From NCBI GenBank assembly GCA_014523525.1, contig JAATVL010000077.1, positions 1-12,622 of the forward strand: a stretch of 12,622 nt of DNA, given 5' to 3'. The position numbers and the translations under genes are program-made. Every line of letters begins with the position of its first letter. Position 1 is the stretch's first letter. Shown in pieces: positions 1 through 12,180 of this stretch. Source of the DNA: Nitrososphaerales archaeon TH703. GTDB taxonomy: Archaea > Thermoproteota > Nitrososphaeria > Nitrososphaerales > Nitrososphaeraceae. The notes beneath the pieces are model-generated. The model ran no database searches, was not told the DNA's origin, and worked only from the letters and a program-made list of their open reading frames with translations.

Positions 1-569
1 ACTGGCCCTTGGTCGTCGCGCGATTGCCACTTTCGAACGGTCTTCCCTGCGAGCGGTTCACGTGCGGTCGCCTCGCGCCGGTAGTTGTATTCAATATCTC
101 CCTCTCGCTGTTGCTCCTCGGTGAACCAGACGTTAAAGTCGAAGTTAAAGTCGCTCCCTAGCGATGATGCCCAAGGGAAAGTCCACCCCATCCGCTGCTT
201 GTACGCCTGCAGCTTCGCGAGAGGTGCCCGCGACACTGCTAAAAGTGTGACGTCGTGGTTGGCCAGGTGGACTACCAAGCCGTCGAAGCCGTCGGCGATC
301 GCCGAGCAGGCCGGACACCCCGCCGTGTAGTCGGGCCCGAACATGAAGTGATACACGAGGAGCTGTGAGCGTCCTCGGAAGAGGTCTGCCAGTAAGGCGC
401 CGCCCTCGTCGATCTCGAATCGATACTCCTTGTCGATCCGAACCCACGGCAGCTTCTGCCGCCGCCGCGCAAGGTCGTCACTCCGTCGCGTGAGCTCCTT
501 CTCCGCCTCTAGCAGTTTGAGCCGCGCTGCGAGCCACTGTTTACGTGTCCCGGTTTTGTGATTTATCAA
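1..569 (-). CDS. DUF899 thioredoxin-like protein, 3' end outside window
   Basis: About 189 codons are present and the reading frame runs off the left edge. The product matches the DUF899 family (thioredoxin-fold, AhpC/TSA-related, presumed cytoplasmic dithiol oxidoreductase of unknown substrate). Visible family blocks are an N-terminal helix TRKQWLAAR (residues 8-16), EAEKELTRRSD (21-31), LPWVRIDKEYRF (40-51), QLLVYHFMFGPDY (69-81), a CPAC redox-type motif (85-88) and later GWTFPWASS and EYNYRRE. The start is taken as TTG at 569-567: it has AGGAG (581-577) seven bases upstream and overlaps the stop of the preceding gene as TTGA. A second TTG at 575 is too close to that site. Base composition is strikingly GC-rich compared with the rest of the window, and codons end mostly in G or C. 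Horizontal acquisition, for example from a high-GC bacterium or haloarchaeon, is inferred. The family call is sure; the physiological role is not known. Confidence 0.88.
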   Translation of the reverse strand, partial: MINHKTGTRKQWLAARLKLLEAEKELTRRSDDLARRRQKLPWVRIDKEYRFEIDEGGALLADLFRGRSQLLVYHFMFGPDYTAGCPACSAIADGFDGLVVHLANHDVTLLAVSRAPLAKLQAYKQRMGWTFPWASSLGSDFNFDFNVWFTEEQQREGDIEYNYRREATAREPLAGKTVRKWQSRDDQGP

Positions 570-808
570 GGCCAATCTCCTAAAGTTTTGCAATGTCCCA
601 GTGCATCTGCATCTCCAGTAATCATATAGTTACCGTCACCTTCTATCACACAGGGAGCGTTACCATTGACACGTACTTCACCATAATCATCATCAGGATG
701 AGACCCTCTGAAAGTTCTGTTATGGACTTTACTCCATATTCCAGATATGTTTGATATTGCCATTAAAGTAATATCTTGTATCGCATATATTAGTTTGAGT
801 GTTTTCAT
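566..808 (-). CDS. Small hypothetical protein upstream of and overlapping the DUF899 gene
   Basis: The longest reading is 80 aa from ATG at 808; an internal ATG at 763 (MAISNISGIWSKVHN) would give 65 aa and may be the true start. I do not recognise the family. The C-terminal half, with IEGDGNYMITGDADALGHC near residues 54-72 and ending GDWP, has the balanced composition of a real small soluble protein, with two cysteines. The stop TGA (568-566) overlaps the TTG start of the DUF899 gene. No good ribosome binding site precedes 808 or 763. A strong AAGGAGGGG (834-826) instead serves an out-of-frame ATG at 821, so the 5' end of this gene is uncertain and may carry a frameshift or leader peptide. 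Confidence 0.5.
   Translation of the reverse strand: MKTLKLIYAIQDITLMAISNISGIWSKVHNRTFRGSHPDDDYGEVRVNGNAPCVIEGDGNYMITGDADALGHCKTLGDWP
577..581 (-). promoter_or_regulatory. Ribosome binding site deciding the TTG start of the DUF899 gene
   Basis: AGGAG on the minus strand lies seven bases before the TTG at 569 and only one base before the alternative TTG at 575. It lies inside the end of the upstream small gene, as expected for a translationally coupled pair. Confidence 0.55.
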
Positions 809-821
809 TTCCTGTGACCAT
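729..821 (-). other. Possible 30-codon leader ORF with a strong Shine-Dalgarno
   Basis: ATG at 821-819 follows AAGGAGGGG (834-826) by four bases and opens a 30-codon frame beginning MVTGNENTQTNICD, with a TAA at 731-729. It overlaps the 80-aa gene out of frame. It is either a leader peptide coupled to the downstream gene or the remnant of an older 5' end disrupted by a frameshift. The ribosome binding site is the only strong argument for translation. Confidence 0.25.
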
Positions 822-874
822 AGAACCCCTCCTTGTTAAGATAATCAATTGATAGGTCTGAAGCCGTCGGGGCA

Positions 875-892
875 AATCTGATTTTTCAGATT
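875..892. repeat. Perfect inverted repeat, 7-base arms and TTTT loop
   Basis: AATCTGA (875-881) pairs with TCAGATT (886-892) across a four-T loop. It abuts the dispersed repeat copy at 887-933 and lies about 70 bases upstream of the 80-aa gene on the minus strand. It could be an operator or part of the repeat. Confidence 0.5.
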
Positions 893-933
893 AATCGGAT
901 TTAGAATTTCTAGTTTCCTTATATAGAGAACTT
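887..933. repeat. Dispersed intergenic repeat, copy 1
   Basis: This stretch aligns nearly end to end with 5957-6003. Both contain GATTTAGAA, then TTTCTAGTTTCC, and end in AGAACTT, differing by a few substitutions and one- or two-base indels. Both copies lie in non-coding DNA in the same orientation. Confidence 0.6.
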
Positions 934-1159
934 TACTTCGCAACAATATCGGAGTAGAAATTAATATTATTTTTGGGTTAATCTAATAAATTTCCTTCGG
1001 GACAGGGGATTGAGATTTTCTAGCATTTAGGGTTCCTCGAGATCCAAACCTTGCATGTAGTAGGGTTCTACTGCTTGGTATTTTAGTTTAGTTTTGTCTC
1101 GGCTGTAATATTCCAAATCGTAAAAAAAAAATCTATGATAGGAGATGAAGTTTAGCTAT

Positions 1160-1552
1160 TTAATAATCCCCTATTCCGCAAGCAAGGATTTCGTATCCTA
1201 CCAAGCCGTTCTGTCCGTTACCATCTTTATGCGCCTGTGTCAGACATTGCTTCTCGTCCTCTTCACTCAATTCATATCCGGGTGAGCTCTTGAACTTTTG
1301 CCAATCGACTGCATCGTGGTTTGTGCATTCCACCATGTCCACGCACTTTGAGAGCTCACATAGAGAACCCTTGTAAGCCAGCATCTTAAATTCCTTCGAG
1401 GACGGATTATTAGAGCCGTGGTTTTTTGGATTCCACTTCATATCCGCGTAGCCATCGCCACATTTTACAGTTTTCGCAAATGAGTAGTGCGTTGATAGAA
1501 ATAACGTTAAAACCAGAGTTGCAAATAAGACAACAGTGATGTACCTGAACAC
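1160..1552 (-). CDS. Secreted six-cysteine protein of unknown function
   Basis: A 130-aa protein with an N-terminal signal peptide: a short start with Arg3, hydrophobic core about residues 5-20, and a probable cleavage after SFA at residue 26. The mature part is polar, rich in Asp, Lys and Gly, with six cysteines (31, 65, 70, 76, 103, 125). An even number in an exported protein suggests three disulfides. No known domain was recognised. The start is GTG at 1552-1550; no ribosome binding site is visible, but the AT box TTTATTTAG is centred about 25 bases upstream, fitting a leaderless transcript. It stands alone between two long spacers. It is probably an exported or cell-surface protein of the archaeon; its role is unknown. 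Confidence 0.78.
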   Translation of the reverse strand: MFRYITVVLFATLVLTLFLSTHYSFAKTVKCGDGYADMKWNPKNHGSNNPSSKEFKMLAYKGSLCELSKCVDMVECTNHDAVDWQKFKSSPGYELSEEDEKQCLTQAHKDGNGQNGLVGYEILACGIGDY

Positions 1553-1572
1553 AAAAGTTGTTGAAACTTATA

Positions 1573-1583
1573 CTAAATAAATC
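1573..1583 (-). promoter_or_regulatory. TATA-like box of the secreted six-cysteine gene
   Basis: On the minus strand ATTTATTTAGT is centred roughly 25 bases before the GTG start, the spacing expected for an archaeal TATA box driving a leaderless mRNA. Confidence 0.4.
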
Positions 1584-1770
1584 TTTATTTCTCTAGGATT
1601 TAGAATATTTTTATAAATCTAATAATAAATTTCGGATCTCTAGGCAAATCGTGTCTGTAAGTGGTATCATCGTTTGGTCATTCAAGCAATCTTTTGGTTT
1701 CTTTAATTTCCTTTTGTGATGTTGTTCTATACTAAAACCGAATTAGAATTACGAGAATCTAATATATCAA

Positions 1771-1785
1771 GTCCCTTATAGGGAC
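1771..1785. repeat. Short perfect hairpin GTCCCTTATAGGGAC
   Basis: Six-base arms around a TAT loop in non-coding DNA. It is not followed by a T tract on either strand, so an operator or repeat remnant is as likely as a terminator. Confidence 0.4.
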
Positions 1786-1983
1786 CGCATCCTTAACTAA
1801 TCTCCTCTATTCTGGTTATAGCAAGGAGCTTTTGCATCGTCAAGCTTCGCTTCATGCCTACAATTTTTTTTGGTAACGTAATTACAATTTTACAATTTTT
1901 AAAATTAAGGTGTATGTAAATACTAAGACAACTGTCGTACGCACTATTAAGGTCTTCTGAAATCAGTTTTACAACTCCTATCT

Positions 1984-2262
1984 TTACGGCAATAAAGGTA
2001 ATTTAAACGAAGGACTAGACACAGAAGCTCCGAAGACATCAAGTTCTGTTATGTGAGCATAATTATTTACGTTGTTGCCATTTACAGTTGTGTCAAACCG
2101 CAGAGCCTTTGCCTCAAAAAAGGAATTTTGTGACATTGGACTTAATATCCAGTTTGAAAATAAAAGCACAGTTGATCCTTGCTCATATGTAAGATCAGCT
2201 AATCTTAGAGCAAAAAATAATGTAGGTGACCAATAGGTAGATAAACAATAAAGAGTATACTT
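1984..2262 (-). pseudogene. Decayed C-terminal part of an F5/8 type C (discoidin) domain
   Basis: An open frame without a convincing start begins after a TAA at 2265-2263 and ends with TAA at 1984-1986. It contains LSTYWSP early and AKALRFDTTVNGNNVNNYAH then ITELDVFGA late. These resemble the first and last conserved blocks of F5/8 type C/CBM32 domains, where the last block is typically an RxxxxxNGN..N..A.I.E..V.G pattern closing the jelly-roll. Intact domains have about 120 residues; here the blocks are about 60 residues apart, so the middle is deleted or scrambled, and a run of six T near 2116-2121 may hide a frameshift. Such domains in archaea occur in large secreted carbohydrate-binding proteins; the rest of the protein is absent. 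The fragment reaches into the probable promoter of the gene at 2272. Confidence 0.6.
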
Positions 2263-2271
2263 TTAATAGCA

Positions 2272-2610
2272 ATGGATCTCAGCTTGAAAGAACAAATTAG
2301 TAGTTTCATAAGATCGTTACCAAATGTAGAGCGAAAACATGATCCTATGAGTAAAGAGGCTTATTTCTACGGTCTGAGAAATTTTTCTCATTTCCATGGT
2401 TCACGACATATTGATATCAGGCTTTCAAAACCTCAGCAAGAAGAAGCCTTGCGGACACATATGGCTATTCAGCATCAGTATGCTCCACAAGCAGGATGGG
2501 TTTCATGCATATTGGAAACTGAAGAGCAGGCAGAGAATACAAAGCGATTGATTAAAGAAGCATATGATACTTGCGTATCTCTGAAAACTTCACATAAACC
2601 AGCAAACTAG
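2272..2610 (+). CDS. DUF5519 / luciferase-like domain protein
   Basis: A 112-aa soluble protein. The segment FYGLRNFSHFHGSRHIDIRL (residues 32-51), then APQAGWVSC (71-79) and ETEEQAENTKRLIKEAYD (82-99) match the order of blocks in the DUF5519 family, often annotated 'luciferase family protein' although no light-emitting activity is implied. The histidines at 40, 42 and 46 and the Gly-Trp-Val motif are the family's conserved points. The biochemical role of the family is unknown. The start ATG at 2272 has no ribosome binding site; AT-rich DNA from 2241 could supply a TATA box for a leaderless transcript. Six bases after its stop begins a 41-aa cysteine-rich gene, which suggests co-transcription. 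Confidence 0.72.
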   Translation: MDLSLKEQISSFIRSLPNVERKHDPMSKEAYFYGLRNFSHFHGSRHIDIRLSKPQQEEALRTHMAIQHQYAPQAGWVSCILETEEQAENTKRLIKEAYDTCVSLKTSHKPAN

Positions 2611-2616
2611 TTTTCA

Positions 2617-2742
2617 ATGGGGAATTGTAATGATTGCTTTAATTGTTACTCCGAATTTCATCCAACCCGCTCAAAGCCATTATGTCCAAGTTGCGGCTTC
2701 TGTTACTGGTGTAGAGATTTTTCATGTTTTCATCATGATTAA
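2617..2742 (+). CDS. 41-aa eight-cysteine zinc-binding microprotein
   Basis: ATG at 2617 opens 41 codons, ending in TAA at 2740-2742. Eight of 41 residues are cysteine (4, 7, 10, 23, 26, 29, 32, 37), in the pattern CxxCxxC followed by CPSCGFCYWC and a last Cys before a His-His-Asp end. This regular CxxC spacing fits two zinc knuckles or a small zinc ribbon and would not be expected by chance in AT-rich DNA. It lies six bases after the DUF5519 gene and is probably in the same operon. Partner and function are unknown; small zinc proteins like this are numerous in ammonia-oxidising archaea and are often presumed to bind nucleic acid or protein. Confidence 0.72.
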   Translation: MGNCNDCFNCYSEFHPTRSKPLCPSCGFCYWCRDFSCFHHD

Positions 2743-2809
2743 TACGTGGTTGAAGTCAGATAATAAGGTCAGACTATTGAAATAACATACATGGAGCTAG
2801 CAACAGAAA

Positions 2810-3418
2810 ATGAGAATGCAGGCAAGGAAGAATCAGCAACCAGATTTTGGAACATATCACCACTCGACACCGCGCAGTTCAGAAAAGACAAGGGAAAAAG
2901 TCAAGATCGTATTCACGAAAGTCTTTGGCGATCTGCCATTCAGTCGGGACGACAAACTGAAAATTCTCGACGTAGGTTCTGGATTGGGATTTCTCTCATG
3001 CGTCTGCGCTGAATACTACCAGAACGCGAAAGTTACAGGGTTTGATACGTTCGAACATGGGAGCCTCAAGGACTCGAGTCTGGCAAAGGCGAAGAATAAT
3101 GCAAAGATCCTAGGATTTCAGGAGAGGGTAAGGTTTCAGAAAGGGGATCTCTTTTCATCGGATTACAGCAAAGGGAAGTTCGACCTTTTCGTCTCCAATC
3201 TAGTCTTTCACAACCTCGGAAGGAAGCGTTTCGATGCGTATGAGAGACTGGCGTATTGGATTATGTCGAACTCGTACATTGTACTCGGTGATCTATTCTT
3301 TGACTACAAGCTAGATTTGAGGCGACTCGTAAGCCTGTTCGGCAACGTAGAGAAAAAGCCTAGCTTCAGTATAGGCAGACAATATAAGTTGGTGACGCTA
3401 TCTGAGCCGAAGAAATAG
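2810..3418 (+). CDS. Class I SAM-dependent methyltransferase
   Basis: A 202-aa protein with a Rossmann methyltransferase core. Motif I is LKILDVGSGLGFLS (residues 50-63), the glycine-rich loop that holds S-adenosylmethionine; Asp79 (VTGFDTF) fits the acidic residue that contacts the ribose; KGDLF (111-115) and FDLFVSNLVFHN (124-135) are the next motifs. The target is not evident from sequence; a small molecule or a protein is possible. There is no signal peptide. The start is ATG 2810 or, six bases on, ATG 2816; neither has a clear ribosome binding site. An overlapping frame from 2791 has no recognisable content. The gene is noticeably richer in G and C than its neighbours, with many codons ending in G or C, suggesting a different history. 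It is 67 bases downstream of the cysteine-rich gene. Confidence 0.85.
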   Translation: MRMQARKNQQPDFGTYHHSTPRSSEKTREKVKIVFTKVFGDLPFSRDDKLKILDVGSGLGFLSCVCAEYYQNAKVTGFDTFEHGSLKDSSLAKAKNNAKILGFQERVRFQKGDLFSSDYSKGKFDLFVSNLVFHNLGRKRFDAYERLAYWIMSNSYIVLGDLFFDYKLDLRRLVSLFGNVEKKPSFSIGRQYKLVTLSEPKK

Positions 3419-3446
3419 TCGATCTTGTGTTACAGTCCTCTGGTAG

Positions 3447-3722
3447 AAATCGGGTGTCGAGCTCAGAGCAGGTCCAGTAGTTTTGATTAACAAATTTAAT
3501 GTCAAGTCTGTTGAAGCAGGACAGTTTTCAAAAGAATGAGAAGAAGATGCTACTAAGTTCAAGGATCAACCAGGATTCGTTTCTGCACAGCTATATTAGG
3601 GAATAGGAAAAAGCACTGTATTTATCAATTATGCGGTATGGGAATCCAAAATATGGTCCGAATTTTGGAAAACCAACAAAAAATATTTACATGTCCAGAT
3701 TAAATTTATAGAAAATAAATTT
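3447..3722 (+). pseudogene. Broken antibiotic-biosynthesis monooxygenase (ABM) domain gene
   Basis: In one frame the translation reads GPVVLINKFNVKS, then QFSKE-stop-EEDATKFKDQPGFVSAQLY-stop-GIGKSTVFINYAVWES. This is the order of an ABM-family ferredoxin-like fold, small dimeric proteins that include monooxygenases acting on polyketides and heme: first beta strand, helix ending in a KxW-like stretch, the PGF turn, then the GxxxFxxYxxWES strand. Two in-frame stops interrupt it: TGA at 3537-3539, where relatives commonly have Trp (TGG), and TAG at 3597-3599. No start codon is in the expected place, since TAG at 3444-3446 precedes it, and the C-terminal third is hard to align. It is therefore judged a decaying gene rather than one using recoding. 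Confidence 0.75.
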
Positions 3723-4005
3723 CTAAGTTGGTTGAGCAGAAATAATATTGATTATAATGATATAGATCACAGCATGATATAGATTGGATAATTTTGCAAA
3801 TATTAACAATTCTATTTTGTCTTGCACGGTGAAATAAAAAGACTGGAACTTAACTTGCAGAACTACCAATCTTCGACTGGCGAGATGCGTTGTTAACGAT
3901 TCGGATCCAACCAGTAGGATACGACTGAAAATCTGATGGGAGCAGCTGTTTGAATTTACATTCATTCTTATTGGAAATACATCTTGACAAAACTGTGTTA
4001 ACTAA
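3723..4005. other. Gene-free spacer before the Kelch gene
   Basis: No supportable gene was seen. An 80-codon frame on the minus strand (3723-3965) has low-complexity Ile-rich content, no promoter or ribosome binding site, and was judged chance. Confidence 0.4.
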
Positions 4006-4014
4006 TTTTATTAA
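4006..4014 (+). promoter_or_regulatory. TATA-like box of the Kelch gene
   Basis: TTTTATTAA is centred 26 bases before the GTG start at 4036, the normal spacing for a leaderless archaeal transcript. No ribosome binding site is present between the two. Confidence 0.5.
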
Positions 4015-4035
4015 CCAGAAAACGCTAATTAGATC

Positions 4036-5019
4036 GTGAGAGAATTACTAGTTGCAACACTAGTTTCAACAATCCTAATCATTTTGCTGATTCCATTGAT
4101 AACATCACCTTCCATGGCGCAGTCATGGTCAGAGGGAGCAGGTATGCCCACTGCAAGATCAGAAATTACTGCTACCAATATAGGAGATGCTATATACGTT
4201 ATCGGCGGGTTCGATAAATCAGGCGATACCTTGGACGTTGTTGAAGTTTATAATGTCAATAATAATTCATGGAAATCGATAGCTCCTATGCCGCAAGGAG
4301 TACATCATACAGCTGCAGCGAGTTATAACGGAAAAATATACGTGGTAGGGGGATTCATTTCAAGGGAATGGATTCCATCCAATCAATTATTTATTTATGA
4401 TCCAATAAAGGATCAGTGGACGGAGGGTAAATCGATGCCGACTCCGAGAGGTGCGTTAAATGCATTATTTGTTAATGGCACTCTATATGCCATAGGCGGA
4501 CAAGACGAAGCTAGAATTTTGAATATAAATGAAGCTTATGATCCACTCACAAACAAGTGGTTCTCAAAAGCATCCATGCCTACTGGCAGACATCATGCTG
4601 CGTCTACAACAATTGACAACAAAATATATGTAGTCGGTGGAAGAATAGCTGGATCTTCTCCTTTAGTAAATGTTAATGTTAATGAAATGTATGATACTGA
4701 AAAAGACAAATGGACACAGATTGAATCCATGCCGTCAAAAAGAAGTGGAATAGCGGCTGCCACAATAAACAATAGCTTTTTCGTATTTGGAGGAGAAGAT
4801 CTTACTAGGACATTTGGTAACAATGAAAAATATGACATAGAAAATGGTAAATGGACATTACTAGAATCAATGCCTACTTCCCGTCATGGTCTAGCAGCTA
4901 TTTCTATTGGTAACAAAATTTTTGTAATTGGTGGAGGACCTGAACCCGGATTAAGCGTAAGCAATGTTAATGAAATCTACGGCGATACTATACTAAATTC
5001 TATTACACAAACAAATTAA
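4036..5019 (+). CDS. Secreted six-repeat Kelch beta-propeller protein
   Basis: A 327-aa protein with an N-terminal signal peptide: Arg2 and Glu3, hydrophobic residues about 4-23, and likely cleavage after SMA at residue 28. Six Kelch repeats of about 47-52 residues follow. Each opens with a Trp and a xMPxxR-like turn (GMPTAR, PMPQG, SMPTPR, SMPTGR, SMPSKR, SMPTSR), continues with a strand ending in the diagnostic double glycine (YVIGG, YVVGG, YAIGG, YVVGG, FVFGG, FVIGG) and has a conserved Tyr about a dozen residues later. Six repeats make a complete six-bladed propeller, so the gene looks intact. Kelch propellers usually bind proteins or sugars; here it acts outside the cell, with no catalytic motif and no C-terminal anchor. 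The start is GTG, placed by the signal peptide and the upstream TATA box. Confidence 0.92.
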   Translation: MRELLVATLVSTILIILLIPLITSPSMAQSWSEGAGMPTARSEITATNIGDAIYVIGGFDKSGDTLDVVEVYNVNNNSWKSIAPMPQGVHHTAAASYNGKIYVVGGFISREWIPSNQLFIYDPIKDQWTEGKSMPTPRGALNALFVNGTLYAIGGQDEARILNINEAYDPLTNKWFSKASMPTGRHHAASTTIDNKIYVVGGRIAGSSPLVNVNVNEMYDTEKDKWTQIESMPSKRSGIAAATINNSFFVFGGEDLTRTFGNNEKYDIENGKWTLLESMPTSRHGLAAISIGNKIFVIGGGPEPGLSVSNVNEIYGDTILNSITQTN

Positions 5020-5265
5020 GTAGTCTTAACACTACAATGCCAGAACAATTGCCACCTCAATCTATCAATGGAAGCAAAGCGGGTAAAATTTAACTAGCTA
5101 ATAAAAGTGCCTCTCCAAAATTCATTTCACTTTACTATCCTAGAACCAATTTAGAGAACTAATATTATCGCGGGCTCGTCGGTACCCGCGACGCTATCGG
5201 TTCTAAATTAGGGTTCTTACTATAACAATAAGACACTAAGCTTTAAAGCTTTTCTTCTCTTCCAT
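5020..5265. other. Non-coding spacer carrying structured repeats
   Basis: No gene was seen between the Kelch stop and the tiny membrane gene on the other strand. It holds the nested inverted repeat (5142-5217) and a perfect 14-base palindrome AAGCTTTAAAGCTT (5238-5251) that lies just beyond the stop of the minus-strand microprotein gene. Confidence 0.5.
5142..5217. repeat. 76-bp nested inverted repeat with GC-rich core hairpin
   Basis: The outer arms AGAACCAATTTAGAGAAC (5142-5159) and GGTTCTAAATTAGGGTTCT (5199-5217) are imperfect reverse complements. Inside is a perfect seven-base GC-rich hairpin, TCGCGGG (5168-5174) with CCCGCGA (5185-5191). A GC-rich core in an AT-rich spacer is typical either of a structured RNA or of a small non-autonomous inverted-repeat element. 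No target-site duplication is obvious. It shares the words TAGAGAACT and TTAGGGTTC with other spacers in the window. Confidence 0.55.
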
Positions 5266-5367
5266 TCATTCTCCTAAACACCCCAAGATACAGTCTTTTA
5301 TTATAAGTGGCGCTATCATTGTGAGCGTGAGTATTCCGGCTGTTACTGGTACAATTATCAATTTCAT
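5266..5367 (-). CDS. 33-aa hydrophobic membrane microprotein
   Basis: ATG at 5367-5365 opens 33 codons and TGA closes at 5268-5266. The first 23 residues form one hydrophobic segment, MKLIIVPVTAGILTLTMIAP then LII, followed by Lys-Asp and a short cysteine-containing end (CILGCLGE), giving a single membrane span with a CxxxC-type tail. The case for translation is strong: AGGTGGTG, a good match to archaeal ribosome binding sites, stands about five to eight bases before the ATG. A perfect AAGCTTTAAAGCTT palindrome 15 bases past the stop could mark the transcript end. No family was recognised. It is divergent from the rest of the region and appears monocistronic. Confidence 0.6.
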   Translation of the reverse strand: MKLIIVPVTAGILTLTMIAPLIIKDCILGCLGE

Positions 5368-5372
5368 GTTAA

Positions 5373-5381
5373 CACCACCTT
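5373..5381 (-). promoter_or_regulatory. Ribosome binding site of the 33-aa membrane gene
   Basis: On the minus strand AAGGTGGTG lies five bases before the ATG. It is one of the clearest Shine-Dalgarno-like sites in the window and is the main support for this short gene. Confidence 0.55.
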
Positions 5382-5456
5382 TCTAATTATTTTTGAATTC
5401 ATAAGTTATATTTGGTGAATCCACCACATTAAGGCTAGTAAGATGTCTTTTTTACT

Positions 5457-5476
5457 AATACCAAACGACTGGTATT
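5457..5476. repeat. Perfect hairpin, 7-base arms
   Basis: AATACCA (5457-5463) pairs with TGGTATT (5470-5476) around AACGAC, and is followed on the plus strand by TTTA. It lies about 90 bases upstream of the 33-aa minus-strand gene, so it could be an operator or a plus-strand transcript end. Confidence 0.45.
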
Positions 5477-5742
5477 TTTAATATTAGACTTTTATTTCTC
5501 GATTTTGTTGACTTGACTAATTCTAAACAGAATTCATTATTGATTAAGGAATCAGAATATAATGCTTATTCTCAAATGGGTCCGAAAAGGTGTGGCTTAC
5601 AACTCACGAACCATTATCCGAATTACTAAGTCTAGAATTTAATTAGATCTAAATAAGAGGAAACGCTAAGTTATGAGCCCATCGGGATACATATTGTTTA
5701 TAATTCGGACCTAAAGTCTTTATTGAAAATTTAACTGGAAGT

Positions 5743-5761
5743 AATCTACCTGCGGTAGATT
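5743..5761 (+). terminator. Perfect 8-base hairpin followed by CCTTTT
   Basis: AATCTACC (5743-5750) and GGTAGATT (5754-5761) form a perfect stem with a TGC loop, followed by a short T run on the plus strand. It resembles a terminator, but no gene is seen immediately upstream and archaeal termination relies mainly on T tracts, so this is tentative. Confidence 0.3.
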
Positions 5762-5956
5762 CCTTTTCGAATTAATATTCTCATCAGTATCCTTATGACT
5801 ATGTATATGATCCTCTCTGTTGGAGTCATTACGACGTATATAATATTACTAGGTGATGTTTAATTTGAATATGACGGAACTTTGTTTCAATTAACCCCAC
5901 ACTGAAATCCTGATTTATAAGACATTCTTTAAATATATGATATTAGCTGGGTTTCT

Positions 5957-6003
5957 CAGGTTGATCAGATTTAGAAATTTCTAGTTTCCATTGTAAAGAA
6001 CTT
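5957..6003. repeat. Dispersed intergenic repeat, copy 2
   Basis: Aligns with 887-933 in the same orientation: CAGGTTGATCAGATTTAGAA here against CAGATTAATCGGATTTAGAA there, both followed by TTTCTAGTTTCC and an end in AGAACTT. Neither copy is in a coding frame. Confidence 0.6.
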
Positions 6004-6193
6004 GTTGGGTCATGCCTTTTACGATTTCTGTGATAGGTAATAATAATTAATTATATCTCCTTCACGATTAAATTATAAAATATAATGTTACGATTTATTG
6101 CTTTTTTGTGCCCTCACATTCCTGAGGCTTGTAAATAAAAAGGAAACTAACTATGTTAATCGATCCTTAATAATCTAGAATAAGTTAAGTGAT

Positions 6194-6403
6194 ATGATGT
6201 ACATTCAAAAAACTTTGCGTGGCGATCATGCCAACTGTAATAACAATTTACCAATTAATGTTAAGTTGGACACAAGTGTAAACCGACGAAGTAACGAAGA
6301 TAAAATTTCTACTCAGAGTGAACTTATTTTGTGTGAAAACTTGTATGAATCTGCAGCATTGTGTACTATTAACCTTAAAGTAGCTTTGACGAATCTATAT
6401 TGA
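6194..6403 (+). CDS. Hypothetical 69-aa protein
   Basis: An ATG-ATG start at 6194 opens 69 codons. The product is polar, rich in Asn, with three cysteines and no recognised motif or membrane segment. Support is contextual: the stop lies seven bases before the next gene, whose AAGGAG site overlaps its end, and an AT-rich box (TTAATAATC, about 25 bases before the start) could drive a leaderless transcript of the operon. Its amino acid content is not strongly protein-like, so it may be a chance frame inside the leader of the next gene. Confidence 0.38.
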   Translation: MMYIQKTLRGDHANCNNNLPINVKLDTSVNRRSNEDKISTQSELILCENLYESAALCTINLKVALTNLY

Positions 6404-6410
6404 AGGAGAA

Positions 6411-6743
6411 ATGTCTAATCCCTACGGAAATAACAGGTCCCATATCGGAAATATGTTCATATGGTTGGGCATATACATGGGGATTGGTTTAGCAATATCA
6501 TTTGTTCTTCCATTTCCTATATCACTATTGACTATGTTTGTATCGATAATTGGGATTGATTATCTAAGAGCCAGATACATTATGAAAAAGATGGGCATCA
6601 CTAACATAAGACAGATGTTTGGTTTCTTTTCGGCTCCGCAAACGCGAGATGAAGCACTGAAGTATTACTGCATGAGTTGCGGAACCGAACACAGAGAAAC
6701 TTCCTGTCCTAAGTGTGGATCTAAAATGACAAGGGTAGCTTGA
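6411..6743 (+). CDS. Membrane-anchored zinc-ribbon protein
   Basis: A 110-aa protein with two hydrophobic helices (about residues 14-34 and 36-51), a basic connector (YLRARYIMKKMG) and a C-terminal zinc ribbon made by Cys87, Cys90, Cys99 and Cys102 (CMSCG and CPKCG). The ribbon is the kind found in many archaeal small proteins that anchor a metal-binding knuckle at the inner face of the membrane; orientation is inferred from the Arg/Lys-rich loop. AAGGAG stands two bases before the ATG at 6411, rather close but clear. It is followed after 39 bases by another cysteine-rich gene on the same strand, probably in one operon. Function is unknown. Confidence 0.82.
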   Translation: MSNPYGNNRSHIGNMFIWLGIYMGIGLAISFVLPFPISLLTMFVSIIGIDYLRARYIMKKMGITNIRQMFGFFSAPQTRDEALKYYCMSCGTEHRETSCPKCGSKMTRVA

Positions 6744-6782
6744 TTGTAAACAAAATGAAGACGCTGGAAACCAAAAGGGAAA

Positions 6783-7004
6783 ATGTACAGTCTTAAATGC
6801 TTACAATGCGGATCGGGCTTCCTTTGCAGCTTCAATCTTGAAGCGCCAATTTGCAGAAAATGTATTCAAAAAGCTAAATCATTGGACTCCACCATTGATT
6901 ATGACAAAATGTGTCTCAAATGTGGTAACAGAAGAGTAATTTATGGTAAGGAAATGTGCTACTCTTGTTATTTCGGATTTGAAAAGAATGAAGCTCCTTT
7001 ATGA
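6783..7004 (+). CDS. Double zinc-knuckle protein
   Basis: A 73-aa soluble protein with nine cysteines. Two four-cysteine sites are visible: Cys6, Cys9, Cys24 and Cys27 (CLQC, then CRKC), and Cys44, Cys47, Cys59 and Cys62 (CLKCG, then CYSC); Cys15 is extra. The second half has the GNRRVIYGKEMCYSC pattern of a treble-clef-like finger. It probably binds two zinc ions. The partner is unknown; small double-knuckle proteins in archaea often touch nucleic acid or a larger complex. It lies 39 bases after the membrane zinc-ribbon gene in the same direction. A purine-rich AAAGGGAA precedes the ATG. T-rich tracts from 7227 on could end the transcript. Confidence 0.78.
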   Translation: MYSLKCLQCGSGFLCSFNLEAPICRKCIQKAKSLDSTIDYDKMCLKCGNRRVIYGKEMCYSCYFGFEKNEAPL

Positions 7005-7359
7005 GAAGCACTATACATAAGAACATAACGGAAGTCATTGGTGTCCCTTGTTAATTCAACTATCAATAATAGGACTTAGAGGTTCAACGGATTTAATGAA
7101 ATACAGTCATATTTTACAGAACCACCAGAGGTCTATCACAAGTGGAATTATACTGTTACCAGATAGTATAGTCACTTCTATATAGAATGAAATATGAGAC
7201 AATATCATTTTTGATTACATGAAAGGTCAAATCATTTTTTTAACCGTATCAAACTTTTTTGTTCAGGTTTTATGGAATCGATGATCATGCAGATCACAGG
7301 AATTTCAAATATACTTTGATAGCACTCTAGCGTGACATTTGAGTCTGTATCTTTTTAAC
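7005..7359. other. Spacer between convergent genes with an interrupted palindrome
   Basis: No supportable gene was seen. It includes the palindrome at 7140-7177 and T-rich tracts near 7227-7242 and 7255-7260 that suit termination of the plus-strand operon. A 54-codon open frame crossing 7030-7190 lacks a good start and was not called. Confidence 0.45.
7140..7177. repeat. Two-part inverted repeat between convergent genes
   Basis: AAGTG (7140-7144) pairs with CACTT (7173-7177) and TATACT (7149-7154) with AGTATA (7165-7170), giving a bulged hairpin with a ten-base loop. Its place between converging genes suggests a transcript-end structure. Confidence 0.4.
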
Positions 7360-8424
7360 CTATAGCAGTATCTTGCGTGATATTGATTTTCTCAGGTTAT
7401 TTACACCATATCCAGATTTAGGCGATACCAGTATTGGATCCAGTATATTTAATTCTGTGAAAATCCTTTTAACATCATCAAATTCAGCTTTATCTATTTT
7501 AGAAAAAATTATTACAATTTTTTCTTTGTCTACTTTCAACTCTTCTAGCACATTCATACAGCTATAATATTTTATTCTAATTTCATCCTCCGATTCTGAT
7601 GAATCAATTAGGAGGAGAATCATGTCTGCCTGAAGTGACTCTTCGAGAGTAGACTTAAAGGCCTCAATCATATAAGTAGGAAGTCTTCTAATGAATCCGA
7701 CAGTATCAGTAAGCAAAAGTTTCTGTCCACCAATAATAAAGGACCTAGTCGTAGTCGAAAGTGTAGTAAATAAATTTTCAGATGTTTCTTTACTTTCAAG
7801 AGTAAGCAAGTTGAATAGAGTAGTCTTTCCTGAACTTGTGTATCCTACAAGAGAAACTATTGGCATTCTGTTATCAAGTCTCTGATTATGGTAAAGTTCG
7901 CGTTTTCTTCTAGCTTCTGTCAACTTATTTATAATAAATCCCATCCTCCTTTTCAAGTCCCTAAATTTTACGTCAACTATGTATTCTCCACTGCCTCCTT
8001 TGCCTGGTCTCTCGCTACCTATTAACAGTGTCGAGTTTTCCCTAATCCGCGGTAGCTCATATTTAATTTCTGCAAGTTGGATCTGTAATTTTGCTTCCGA
8101 TGTAGTAGCTCTAGTGTAAAACAAGTCAAGGATAAGCCTTTCTCTATCTACTACCTTTGCGCCTGTTGTCTTCTCTAAATTATAGATCTGCTTTGGTGTC
8201 ATATGTTCATCAACAATAATCTTGTCAGACTCAGTATGTTGAAGAAATTCTTTAATCTCTTCGACCTTGCCAGATCCCAGACCATATTTCGTATGCCTCA
8301 GGTCTTTTTGGGTAAAGCACTTTACAATATTAAAATTGCCCAATGATTCAACCAAACCTTTTCCTTCCTGTTTGCTGAAATCGTCAGCATATGTTACCAG
8401 TATAGCATTTTGTTTACTTGTCAG
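7360..8424 (-). CDS. hflX: HflX-family GTPase, CTG start
   Basis: A 354-aa ribosome-associated GTPase of the HflX type. The N-terminal domain has YGLGSGKVEEIKEFL and VDEHMTPKQIYNLEK; the helical linker has ATTSEAKLQIQLAEIKYELP. The G domain has G1 GYTSSGKTT (residues 194-202), G3 DTVGF (240-244), G4 SKID (308-311) and G5 SPKSG (334-338). HflX binds the large ribosomal subunit and rescues or splits ribosomes under stress. The first TTG in frame (8355) would cut off the first beta strand, NAILVTYADDFSKQEGKG, which belongs to the family fold. The frame stays open only to a TGA just beyond 8424, and CTG at 8424-8422 overlaps the stop of the upstream zinc-ribbon gene as CTGA, so I place the start there. 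Odd points: Ser replaces Asn in G4, and the usual GPGE-type glycine motif is degenerate (GKGGSGEYIVDVKFRD). Confidence 0.88.
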   Translation of the reverse strand: MTSKQNAILVTYADDFSKQEGKGLVESLGNFNIVKCFTQKDLRHTKYGLGSGKVEEIKEFLQHTESDKIIVDEHMTPKQIYNLEKTTGAKVVDRERLILDLFYTRATTSEAKLQIQLAEIKYELPRIRENSTLLIGSERPGKGGSGEYIVDVKFRDLKRRMGFIINKLTEARRKRELYHNQRLDNRMPIVSLVGYTSSGKTTLFNLLTLESKETSENLFTTLSTTTRSFIIGGQKLLLTDTVGFIRRLPTYMIEAFKSTLEESLQADMILLLIDSSESEDEIRIKYYSCMNVLEELKVDKEKIVIIFSKIDKAEFDDVKRIFTELNILDPILVSPKSGYGVNNLRKSISRKILL

Positions 8425-8609
8425 AATGTTTCAGGTCCGGACCAGTCCATATAATCATCATGTGAATATTCGTTTTTGTGCCCCCTTGAACACTCATGTG
8501 ATGTTGCAGAATTAGCTTTTAATTTGGAACCTTCTTTGGTATCTTCAGGTATATAAACACCGGGAAACACTTCACCACAGTTCTTGCATTTTAACATCAG
8601 CATAGGCAT
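8421..8609 (-). CDS. Zinc-ribbon protein upstream of hflX
   Basis: A 62-aa protein with a CKNCG knuckle (Cys8, Cys11) and a second half-site CSRGH (Cys40, His44), ending DDYMDWSGPETF. The pattern LKCKNCGEVFPGVYI followed by a SHECSRGHKNEY segment is of a type common among tiny proteins of ammonia-oxidising archaea. It should fold around one zinc. The start ATG at 8609-8607 gives MPMLMLKC; alternative ATGs at codons 3 and 5 cannot be excluded. Its stop TGA overlaps the CTG start of hflX, so the two are translated from one message and the HflX level may depend on translation of this gene. The perfect palindrome GGTCCGGACC (8434-8443) lies in its last codons. Function unknown. Confidence 0.8.
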   Translation of the reverse strand: MPMLMLKCKNCGEVFPGVYIPEDTKEGSKLKANSATSHECSRGHKNEYSHDDYMDWSGPETF

Positions 8610-8834
8610 TTGTCTTAAACTAACTATTATACGATGTCGATGCTATTAATATCTACCGACGCTAATATTCAAGTAAAAATGGATTAACTGTCACCAATCG
8701 TTAGCAATATCATATATCGACCAGATGTACGCGTTATTCGCTACTAGTATCTCTAAGACTTGACCATTTTTAGGAGCGCTAAGGGTAATTCAGGGTTTCT
8801 AGTACCAAAAGATACTTAAAAATAAATCATAATT

Positions 8835-9098
8835 TTACTGAATAAGGTCTAAGACCATTTTCAATTCATCTATCTCATTTTCTATAGCTTGTCTGTCTAC
8901 CTCATCTCTACCATACTTTGCCGTGTACTTTGCCAACCTTTGACATGCTTCAATCTGTCCTAATATCAAGTCCTTCTTATCGTGACATAAACTATGGTAG
9001 CTATCAATCAAGGAATACGTTACTTTTCTCTTCTTATCCATGCATCCACAAGTTTTGGCCATAATGCCATAGGGTGATTCTGCTTCGGAAATATTCAA
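8835..9098 (-). CDS. Small helical cysteine-containing protein
   Basis: An 87-aa protein. After a short start it has Cys17 and Cys19 (TCGCMDKKRK), then mostly charged helix: SLCHDKKDLILGQIEACQRL and EVDRQAIENEIDELKMVLDL, suggesting a two- or three-helix bundle or coiled coil. No family was recognised. The start is taken as TTG at 9098-9096, which overlaps the stop of the upstream gene as TTGA; a GGTG about ten bases upstream is a weak ribosome binding site. An internal ATG at codon 13 (MAKTCGC) is the alternative. It is co-directional and overlapping with the zinc protein at 9095-9364, so it is probably translationally coupled and possibly its partner. Confidence 0.65.
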   Translation of the reverse strand: MNISEAESPYGIMAKTCGCMDKKRKVTYSLIDSYHSLCHDKKDLILGQIEACQRLAKYTAKYGRDEVDRQAIENEIDELKMVLDLIQ

Positions 9099-9364
9099 TT
9101 TACTAAGACACCGTCATTGGAATCAAACCAGAATTCTAGGACCATACCATGAATATAATCATAAACTAGTCTGTATGACTCATAATCTGATACAGGCATT
9201 GATTCTACTTCATTATTACCACACAAAGGACAAGTATTGGGAATGATTAAGTTGGTCAAGCATGTGGCACACCAGTGACACGATTTACAGATCAAGAAAT
9301 TTCTCTTGTCAATAAACTTATCTTTATTTTCATAGAGCAGCGGATAAATCTTCGAAGAGGTCAC
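9095..9364 (-). CDS. Six-cysteine zinc-ribbon protein
   Basis: An 89-aa protein with a regular cysteine array CKSCHWCATC (Cys26, 29, 32, 35) and CPLCG (Cys45, 48), able to hold one or two zinc ions. The following segment, NEVESMPVSDYESYRLVYDY and then GMVLEFWF, has alternating strand-like character. Proteins with this ribbon plus an ESxPxSxxESY tail recur in ammonia-oxidising archaea; their function is not established. The start is GTG at 9364-9362; no ribosome binding site is seen, and TATACAAA on the minus strand is centred about 29 bases before it, which fits a leaderless transcript. The stop TGA overlaps the TTG start of the next gene. Confidence 0.75.
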   Translation of the reverse strand: MTSSKIYPLLYENKDKFIDKRNFLICKSCHWCATCLTNLIIPNTCPLCGNNEVESMPVSDYESYRLVYDYIHGMVLEFWFDSNDGVLVN

Positions 9365-11211: not shown

Positions 11212-12180
11212 ATGGTCGATCTAGTTTATGGCCGTGGAATAACCGATATTGTTCGAGAGATACCTCTGTACGCCAGCATTTTCAAGAAATTTGTTGGTAT
11301 CAAGTTTTTTCATACAAAGCCATCACTATACGGGTCAGCCGATATAATCAATGTTTGTAACCTTCACTGTTCTCATTGCTACTGGTGGTTAAATAGGAAG
11401 GACGATAATCAAGATTTAAGCGTAGAGGACTGGAGAAAAACAATCAGAAGAACATTCAAGAAACAAAACCTTTTTGTTGTCACACTGGTTGGCGGAGAGC
11501 CAACTATGAGACCAGAGATAATAGAGGTATTTTGTCAAGAGATGCCTAGGAGGGTATGTGTGGTCACAAATGGCTATTTCCCATTGAAGAGGTTCGAAAA
11601 GCTTTACTTTTATTGGATATCATTAGATGGAACTGAAAAGGCCCACGATGCTATTAGGGGAGAAGGTTCCTACGCCAAGACCAAAAGTAACATTCTAGAG
11701 TATATTAAAGGTCCTCCTAGGAACGGAAAGCCTGCTTGGAAAGATATTTGGATAACAATGACTATTAATTCAGTCAATTGCTCTACTGCTATTGATTTGG
11801 CAGATGAATGGGTTGGAAAAGTCAACAAAATTGGATTTCAGTTTCACACACCATTTATGAAAGGAGATCCTTTATGGCTACCATTTGGAAATTTACGTAA
11901 TGATCTAGTAGATCGACTTATAGACCTGAGAAGAAAATATCCAGACTTTGTTATTAACAGTGAGAAACAATTAGCATTGATGAAAGGGAATTGGGGAGGT
12001 AGTGGGACAACTCCTGTTCAATGTCCCTCATGGGCTATACTTTCTTTGGATCATATGGGAAGAGTTAAACAGCCTTGTTGCATTGGTAGTGCTGATACCA
12101 AGTCACTAAAGCCAATCTGTGAAGATTGCGGTCTGGGTTGCTATTCTGTATTAGTCGCAAATGGCATTACAGGTGCATAG
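11212..12180 (+). CDS. Radical SAM enzyme with C-terminal auxiliary Fe-S cluster motif
   Basis: A 322-aa protein. The CX3CX2C motif CNLHCSHCY (Cys49, Cys53, Cys56) binds the [4Fe-4S] cluster that cleaves S-adenosylmethionine; LVGGEP (92-97) is the SAM-binding GGE motif, and VTNGYF and YFYWISLDG are the next core strands of the partial TIM barrel. The C-terminus has six more cysteines (271, 289, 290, 303, 306, 310; CPSW, PCC, CEDCGLGC), a pattern like SPASM/Twitch extensions, which hold an auxiliary cluster and are common in peptide-modifying and HpnH-like enzymes. The substrate cannot be told from sequence, and no precursor-peptide gene is evident next to it. It has its own promoter and long spacers on both sides, so it seems monocistronic. 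The N-terminal 40 residues, with IPLYASIFKKFVGIKFF, may be an amphipathic membrane-associated helix. Confidence 0.9.
   Translation: MVDLVYGRGITDIVREIPLYASIFKKFVGIKFFHTKPSLYGSADIINVCNLHCSHCYWWLNRKDDNQDLSVEDWRKTIRRTFKKQNLFVVTLVGGEPTMRPEIIEVFCQEMPRRVCVVTNGYFPLKRFEKLYFYWISLDGTEKAHDAIRGEGSYAKTKSNILEYIKGPPRNGKPAWKDIWITMTINSVNCSTAIDLADEWVGKVNKIGFQFHTPFMKGDPLWLPFGNLRNDLVDRLIDLRRKYPDFVINSEKQLALMKGNWGGSGTTPVQCPSWAILSLDHMGRVKQPCCIGSADTKSLKPICEDCGLGCYSVLVANGITGA

Follow-up and report, generated by a model that had tools for sequence, protein, structure and literature searches.

The DNA considered here (the window) is 12,622 nucleotides (nt) long and comprises an entire contig, JAATVL010000077.1, of Nitrososphaerales archaeon TH703 (assembly GCA_014523525.1; contig C40 of a 309-contig, 1.95-Mb assembly, called G000 below). 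On its minus strand, a DUF899 gene, the gene hflX and a gene for a protein of 87 amino acids (aa) each begin with a non-ATG codon that shares two bases with the TGA stop of the open reading frame (ORF) upstream, giving junctions of the form NTGA. An earlier inspection of the DNA by itself (the sequence-only reading) placed these junctions correctly and took them as three instances of one phenomenon. In comparisons with related genomes they are three different things of separate origin, for which a common explanation is mostly unneeded: one is a false overlap, one belongs to a gene with a family-wide weak start, and one has a first base that truly drifts. The fuller reading favored here, with a probability of roughly 70%, is that two of the junctions are real short overlaps within small conserved gene pairs, that the DUF899 gene lies behind a dead gene fragment, and that hflX is read from its CTG by reinitiation.

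The minus-strand sequences are GGCC-TTGA-TAAATC, ACATT-CTGA-CAAG and GTAAA-TTGA-ATAT (junctions 1 to 3 in Table 1), each with both frames open. The frames opened by the NTG run for 189 codons (DUF899, which leaves the contig), 354 (hflX) and 87; those upstream, of 80, 62 and 89 aa, are all at least 60 aa long and closed by the junction TGA. Sixty dinucleotide shuffles of the window gave a mean of 0.03 such ORF pairs and a maximum of one, so the three junctions are not due to chance at the ORF level. All three starts, the hflX CTG included, coincide with those of relatives. Both partners are real genes only at the hflX and 87-aa junctions, so that two of the three gene pairs originally described stand, while in the third DUF899 adjoins a decaying fragment. 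The overlap is kept in 9/9 same-genus genomes having the partner for hflX, and exactly in five of eight orthologues for the 87-aa gene. Genomes G001 to G011 are from the same genus as the window, and G034 (complete) and G031 from other genera. Coding was tested by tallying nucleotide differences at codon positions 1/2/3 between related genomes, and Shine-Dalgarno strength was taken as duplex energy to the tail of the 16S ribosomal RNA, for which random stretches of the window have 10% and 5% quantiles of -5.4 and -7.0 kcal/mol.

Table 1. Features at the three NTGA junctions of the window.
Feature	Position	Strand	Basis
TTGA junction 1 (apparent overlap only)	566..569	-	Sequence
DUF899 gene, start TTG 569-567, 3' part missing at contig end	3..569	-	Pfam PF05988, 235.3 bits (cut-off 27)
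80-aa ORF, truncated, decaying gene fragment	566..808	-	83% match to C276, frame breaks in relatives, codon-position differences
GGAG-type Shine-Dalgarno motif region before DUF899	573..581	-	TTAGGAGA pairs with 16S tail
CTGA junction 2	8421..8424	-	Sequence
hflX, 354 codons from CTG 8424-8422	7360..8424	-	TIGR03156, 289.8 bits (cut-off 216.75)
62-aa zinc-ribbon-like protein, MPMLMLKCKNCGE...SGPETF, upstream partner of hflX	8421..8609	-	Conserved in 8 aligned same-genus genomes
TTGA junction 3	9095..9098	-	Sequence
87-aa protein gene, start TTG 9098-9096	8835..9098	-	N-terminus MNI common to homologues
89-aa Cys-rich (CxxCxxC...CxxC) protein gene, start GTG, upstream partner of 87-aa gene	9095..9364	-	Third-position excess, alignment

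The genus-conserved CTG start of hflX appears to be the unusual item among the three. The hflX product matches solved HflX chains in the PDB by sequence, among them those of Sulfolobus and E. coli. In the hflX frame a TGA lies two codons ahead of the CTG, followed by AAC ATT CTG ACA AGT AAA CAA AAT and then a conserved strand. The CTG falls on the TGA of the zinc-ribbon gene in 8/8 aligned same-genus loci and in G010 (at a contig end), that is, in all nine genomes with the upstream gene, and at none of these nine loci is there an ATG, GTG or TTG ahead of the conserved first strand. No hflX N-terminus was obtained from G002 and G004; in G001 the start is TTG and no zinc-ribbon gene was recognised. 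Differences in codons 5-23, tallied by codon position over pairs of eight genomes, are 45/48/160, an excess at third positions which indicates that the stretch following the CTG is translated. A start at TTG 8355 was rejected because it would remove the conserved first strand. A listing limited to ATG, GTG and TTG begins hflX there, 23 codons late, as had been anticipated for gene callers that reject CTG as a start. The zinc-ribbon gene is also found upstream of hflX in other genera; a Pfam search of its product gave no family above its cut-off. A second hflX-like gene in the same genome (G000:C148, L221) has 42% identity and the start candidates TTG and GTG, with no ATG.

The overlap does not account for the weakness of this start. 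A family-level survey of hflX (60 rows, giving 47 distinct loci; more distant rows were excluded, as were seven records, L224-L230, repeating genomes already included) has TTG at 28 loci, CTG at nine, GTG at five and ATG at five. Where a zinc-ribbon gene ends within -15 to +10 nt of the start (28 loci), the counts are TTG 13, CTG nine, GTG four and ATG two; where none was found (18 loci), TTG 15, ATG two and GTG one; and the one locus with a zinc-ribbon gene 49 nt off has ATG. Starts are non-ATG in 26/28 tight overlaps versus 16/19 other loci (p = 0.38). Since hflX rarely has ATG with or without the zinc-ribbon gene, the overlap is not what removed it. What is particular to the window's genus is the C replacing T in the start codon, with loss of an older zinc-ribbon stop: the upstream protein ends DWS-stop in many relatives versus DWSGPETF-stop in this genus. 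The hflX of this archaeal family would already have been a weak-start gene, mostly with TTG, before its start became CTG here while the zinc-ribbon protein was slightly extended at its C-terminus.

An NTG start followed by A holds a ready-made TGA, at which an upstream frame losing its own stop would end. The downstream gene could then be read from the NTG by a ribosome that has just finished with the upstream gene, or by a newly recruited one. In eight genus genomes the 16S-tail duplex upstream of hflX is -3.3 to -4.7 kcal/mol, so that there is no strong Shine-Dalgarno motif before the CTG and termination-reinitiation is the likeliest mode of reading it. The weak pairing fits such a mechanism; the duplex reaches -7.1 and -6.6 kcal/mol in G001 and G016, neither of which yielded a zinc-ribbon gene. 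The weak start may serve to tune expression. HflX is described as a bacterial ribosome splitting factor in PMC4770234. In the window's genus, hflX might have exchanged a standard start for a CTG set exactly on the zinc-ribbon stop, and HflX might be made only by just-terminated, still unsplit ribosomes, so that rising HflX would starve its own start as an autoregulatory switch, although this is a long shot.

Junction 1 is of another kind: the 80-aa ORF ahead of DUF899 is, on the sequence evidence, a decaying fragment, and the junction is then not a gene overlap. Over about 200 bases this ORF has an 83% match to the beginning of a longer frame found on another contig of this genome, C276; the match stops at about window position 611, short of the junction. 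When it is aligned with relatives, small insertions and deletions disrupt its frame, and differences between G000 and G007 fall 5/6/2 by codon position, versus 2/3/18 in DUF899 (third against other positions, Fisher p = 0.0004). With its frame broken in relatives and differences ignoring codon position, it was rejected as a living gene. The C276 relative (L002, 1-930) is open for about 240 codons and has no clear start of the usual kind.

The window being the whole contig, DUF899 is cut by the contig end. Its start aligns as ATG ACG CAG CAC in G034, TTG ACG AAG CAC in G031, TTG ATG AAT CAC in G007 and TTG ATA AAT CAC in the window. Codons 1-2 are TTG ATG in G007, G011 and G009 and GAG ATG in G004; with codon 2 ATA in the window, versus ATG in three same-genus relatives, TTG is the sole usual start left at this site. 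Just upstream lies TTAGGAGA, whose duplex with the 16S tail has an energy of -7.0 kcal/mol, which places it in about the top 5% of random stretches. Some 40 nt immediately upstream, the GGAG among them, are common to G031, of another genus, in which the rest of the fragment is unrecognisable. At the junction (~570), near the contig end, GC (guanine plus cytosine) content drops sharply, from about 60% to under 40%. The same order of fragment and DUF899 is found in G007, G004, G009 and G011, with 34-37% GC in the upstream 500 bases and 57-61% in the gene, and because both junction and step recur in these four genomes a chimaeric contig was rejected. The DUF899 of the window is probably of outside origin, a GC-rich gene that would start from its own GGAG motif behind a dead fragment. 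Across this archaeal family, DUF899 genes (1-569, L065-L077) have 48-67% GC versus 28-51% in the DNA upstream, a contrast suggestive of acquisition, perhaps repeated, from GC-rich organisms.

At junction 3, the 89-aa Cys-rich ORF differs 96/56/151 by codon position (pairs of five genomes). Matches to the 87-aa protein were found in 29 of 61 genomes searched and in none of 24 from other families of the order; among these genomes, its family seems to be restricted to the window's taxonomic family. The homologues share an MNI-type N-terminus (a few have MNV, MNL or MNM), so codon 1 of the 87-aa gene is correct; later starts at ATG 9062 or 9041 were rejected because homologues with ATG or GTG as codon 1 share the MNI there. 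Eight orthologues, all on the contig carrying hflX, begin with TTG (G000, G007, G011, G009, G010), GTG (G005), ATG (G006) or CTG (G003). The overlap is exact in G000, G007, G009, G011 and G005; the upstream ORF ends 1 nt ahead of the start in G003 and G010, and 24 nt ahead in G006, following a 2-nt deletion. Upstream of nine tested starts of the family, 16S pairing is -5.7 to -14.0 kcal/mol, so these starts need not depend on reinitiation, and recruitment through a Shine-Dalgarno-like motif inside the upstream gene would be possible for the 87-aa gene. For the Cys-rich and 87-aa pair (8835-9364), a single genome has as many as eight match rows (G030), and a CxxC-type ORF frequently lies immediately upstream. 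One paralogue, L046 (G008:C117), has ACG at the position of its homologues' ATG, behind GAGGAGG, with no ATG, GTG or TTG between the ACG and the in-frame stop.

The sequence-only reading had proposed that a terminating ribosome restarts with little need for an ATG and that the first base has drifted freely, with all three junctions as examples. This is unlikely as a general account, and it is the alternative that survives best. The T, G, A and C found among the eight 87-aa orthologues are what it would predict, as is one other genus junction, which reads ATGA in G006 and G009 but TTGA in G008 (pairs of 223 and 423 aa, with orthology taken from lengths). In the 87-aa family (47 of 89 match rows classified, the remainder being partial, weak or unfetched), rows with a Cys-rich ORF ending at -10 to +4 have 11 non-ATG and seven ATG starts, versus four non-ATG (TTG, TTG, GTG, ACG) and 18 ATG in rows without a nearby ORF, a contig-edge row (L211, TTG) being left out. 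The difference (11/18 vs 4/22) has p = 0.009, or p = 0.004 against all 29 other rows, including six with other or distant ORFs that all have ATG, but as the rows are related these values are too small. Against free drift, exact 4-nt overlaps with the Cys-rich ORF use TTG five times, GTG three times and ATG five times, one of the last being the ATGA of a paralogous pair on another contig of the same genome as the window (G000:C296); three of the eight drifting orthologues have gaps rather than overlaps; hflX is non-ATG without an overlap too; and DUF899 overlaps a dead fragment and has its own GGAG motif. Drift of the first base thus holds for one of the three junctions.

The overlap counts that bear on this proposal are similarly divided. 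In 1.18 Mb of stretches from nine genus genomes, with 859 scored genes, NTGA junctions joining two scored genes (n = 26, some of them orthologous, and including only the hflX junction among the window's three) have A 15 times, T five, G three and C three times. The base preceding other TGA stops (n = 226) is A in 89, T in 76, C in 35 and G in 26, so that ATGA is commonest without being significantly enriched (15/26 vs 89/226, p = 0.09). In 400 kb of G034, ATGA is strongly favored (8/13 vs 14/81; junctions A eight, T two, G two, C one; other TGA stops A 14, T 17, G 16, C 34). When raw ORFs are counted, nine NTGA junctions occur in 40 further contigs of G000, five of them non-ATG (A four, T three, C two). 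Finding three of three non-ATG has a probability of about 0.08 at 11/26, and the window's junctions make up a mild local cluster. Of the three CTGA junctions in the genus, two have an ATG or TTG 3 or 9 nt downstream, and hflX alone has none near. A relaxed ATG requirement at overlaps is partly supported overall, and is neither shown nor excluded by this evidence.

Several points weigh against separate origins with reinitiation at hflX. Start codons in the hflX survey were assigned by rule, and its zinc-ribbon genes were recognised by a pattern search that members may escape (the frame upstream of L249 ends YYMGWS). The Shine-Dalgarno-like motif of the window's own 87-aa gene, at -5.7 kcal/mol, is within about the best 10% of random stretches. 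A Sulfolobus pair with adjacent UGAGUG is reported in PMC6728339 not to be coupled. Retention of the C in CTG is not clearly under selection: of 19 comparable C-ending codons, including the junction codon, four are unchanged in all eight genomes, and no unusual synonymous conservation was seen at the end of the zinc-ribbon gene, in the whole of which the codon is also the same at 13 of 33 unchanged residues (leaving out Met and Trp). Finally, ATT stands directly before the CTG in 9/9 same-genus genomes and is equally conserved. This ATT (8427-8425), the only other shared candidate, or another near-cognate codon, might be the start of hflX, the CTG being an ordinary leucine codon. We infer CTG instead, and consider ATT improbable, since the CTG aligns within about one codon of the TTG of relatives and its overlap with the stop has the usual 4-nt form, and since a measurement cited in PMC10666635 puts ATT at about 0.3% of the efficiency of ATG. 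An artefact (a chimaeric contig, sequencing errors, or wrong starts with genes beginning further inside) might be suspected from the sharp GC step at a contig end in a 309-contig assembly, but is very improbable given the recurrence of that junction and step in four relatives, the hflX CTG in nine assemblies, and the conservation of HflX and the 87-aa protein from near their claimed starts.

Elsewhere in the window, positions 4036-5019 encode a Kelch-repeat protein with a hydrophobic N-terminus and 11212-12180 a Radical SAM protein. PADLOC gave no match for the three small proteins and one weak match for hflX (mad8, 14.2 bits, E 0.006).

Where hflX starts with a CTG that nine genomes of one genus share, callers blind to this codon would miss its first 23 codons. 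The natural series of starts (TTG, GTG, ATG, CTG) at the hflX and 87-aa junctions would make the start-codon dependence of archaeal reinitiation testable. As an overlap in raw sequence may be a gene abutting a dead fragment, both partners should be tested for coding before overlaps are counted.

The geometry at these junctions, the last two bases of NTG being the first two of TGA in same-strand neighbours, is that of known 4-nt overlaps with translational coupling by termination-reinitiation. These are given as (A/G/T)TGA in PMC3887535, with general start usage of 80% ATG, 17% GTG and 3% TTG, and as ATGA or GTGA in PMC10666635. TTGA is therefore already within the published set, whereas the CTGA of hflX is outside the sets named there, and junction 1 differs in having no living upstream gene. 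AUG, GUG and UUG function in all types of archaeal messenger RNA (PMC7531240, in the text of which the term CUG is absent); in the open-licence literature, nothing was found on TTG start codons in Nitrososphaera. Strict coupling is reported for 13 of 14 pairs tested in PMC6728339, while at the junctions here it is putative. Like other members of the HflX family (TIGR03156), the window protein has N-terminal, middle and GTPase domains, and its gene differs in its near-cognate start and zinc-ribbon partner. A non-AUG start that tunes a translation factor is the AUU of E. coli infC, where a conserved weak start likewise belongs to a protein linked to translation, and the autoregulatory switch suggested above would be comparable to it; the hflX start differs in being CTG, archaeal and set on an upstream stop, with any autoregulation here hypothetical.

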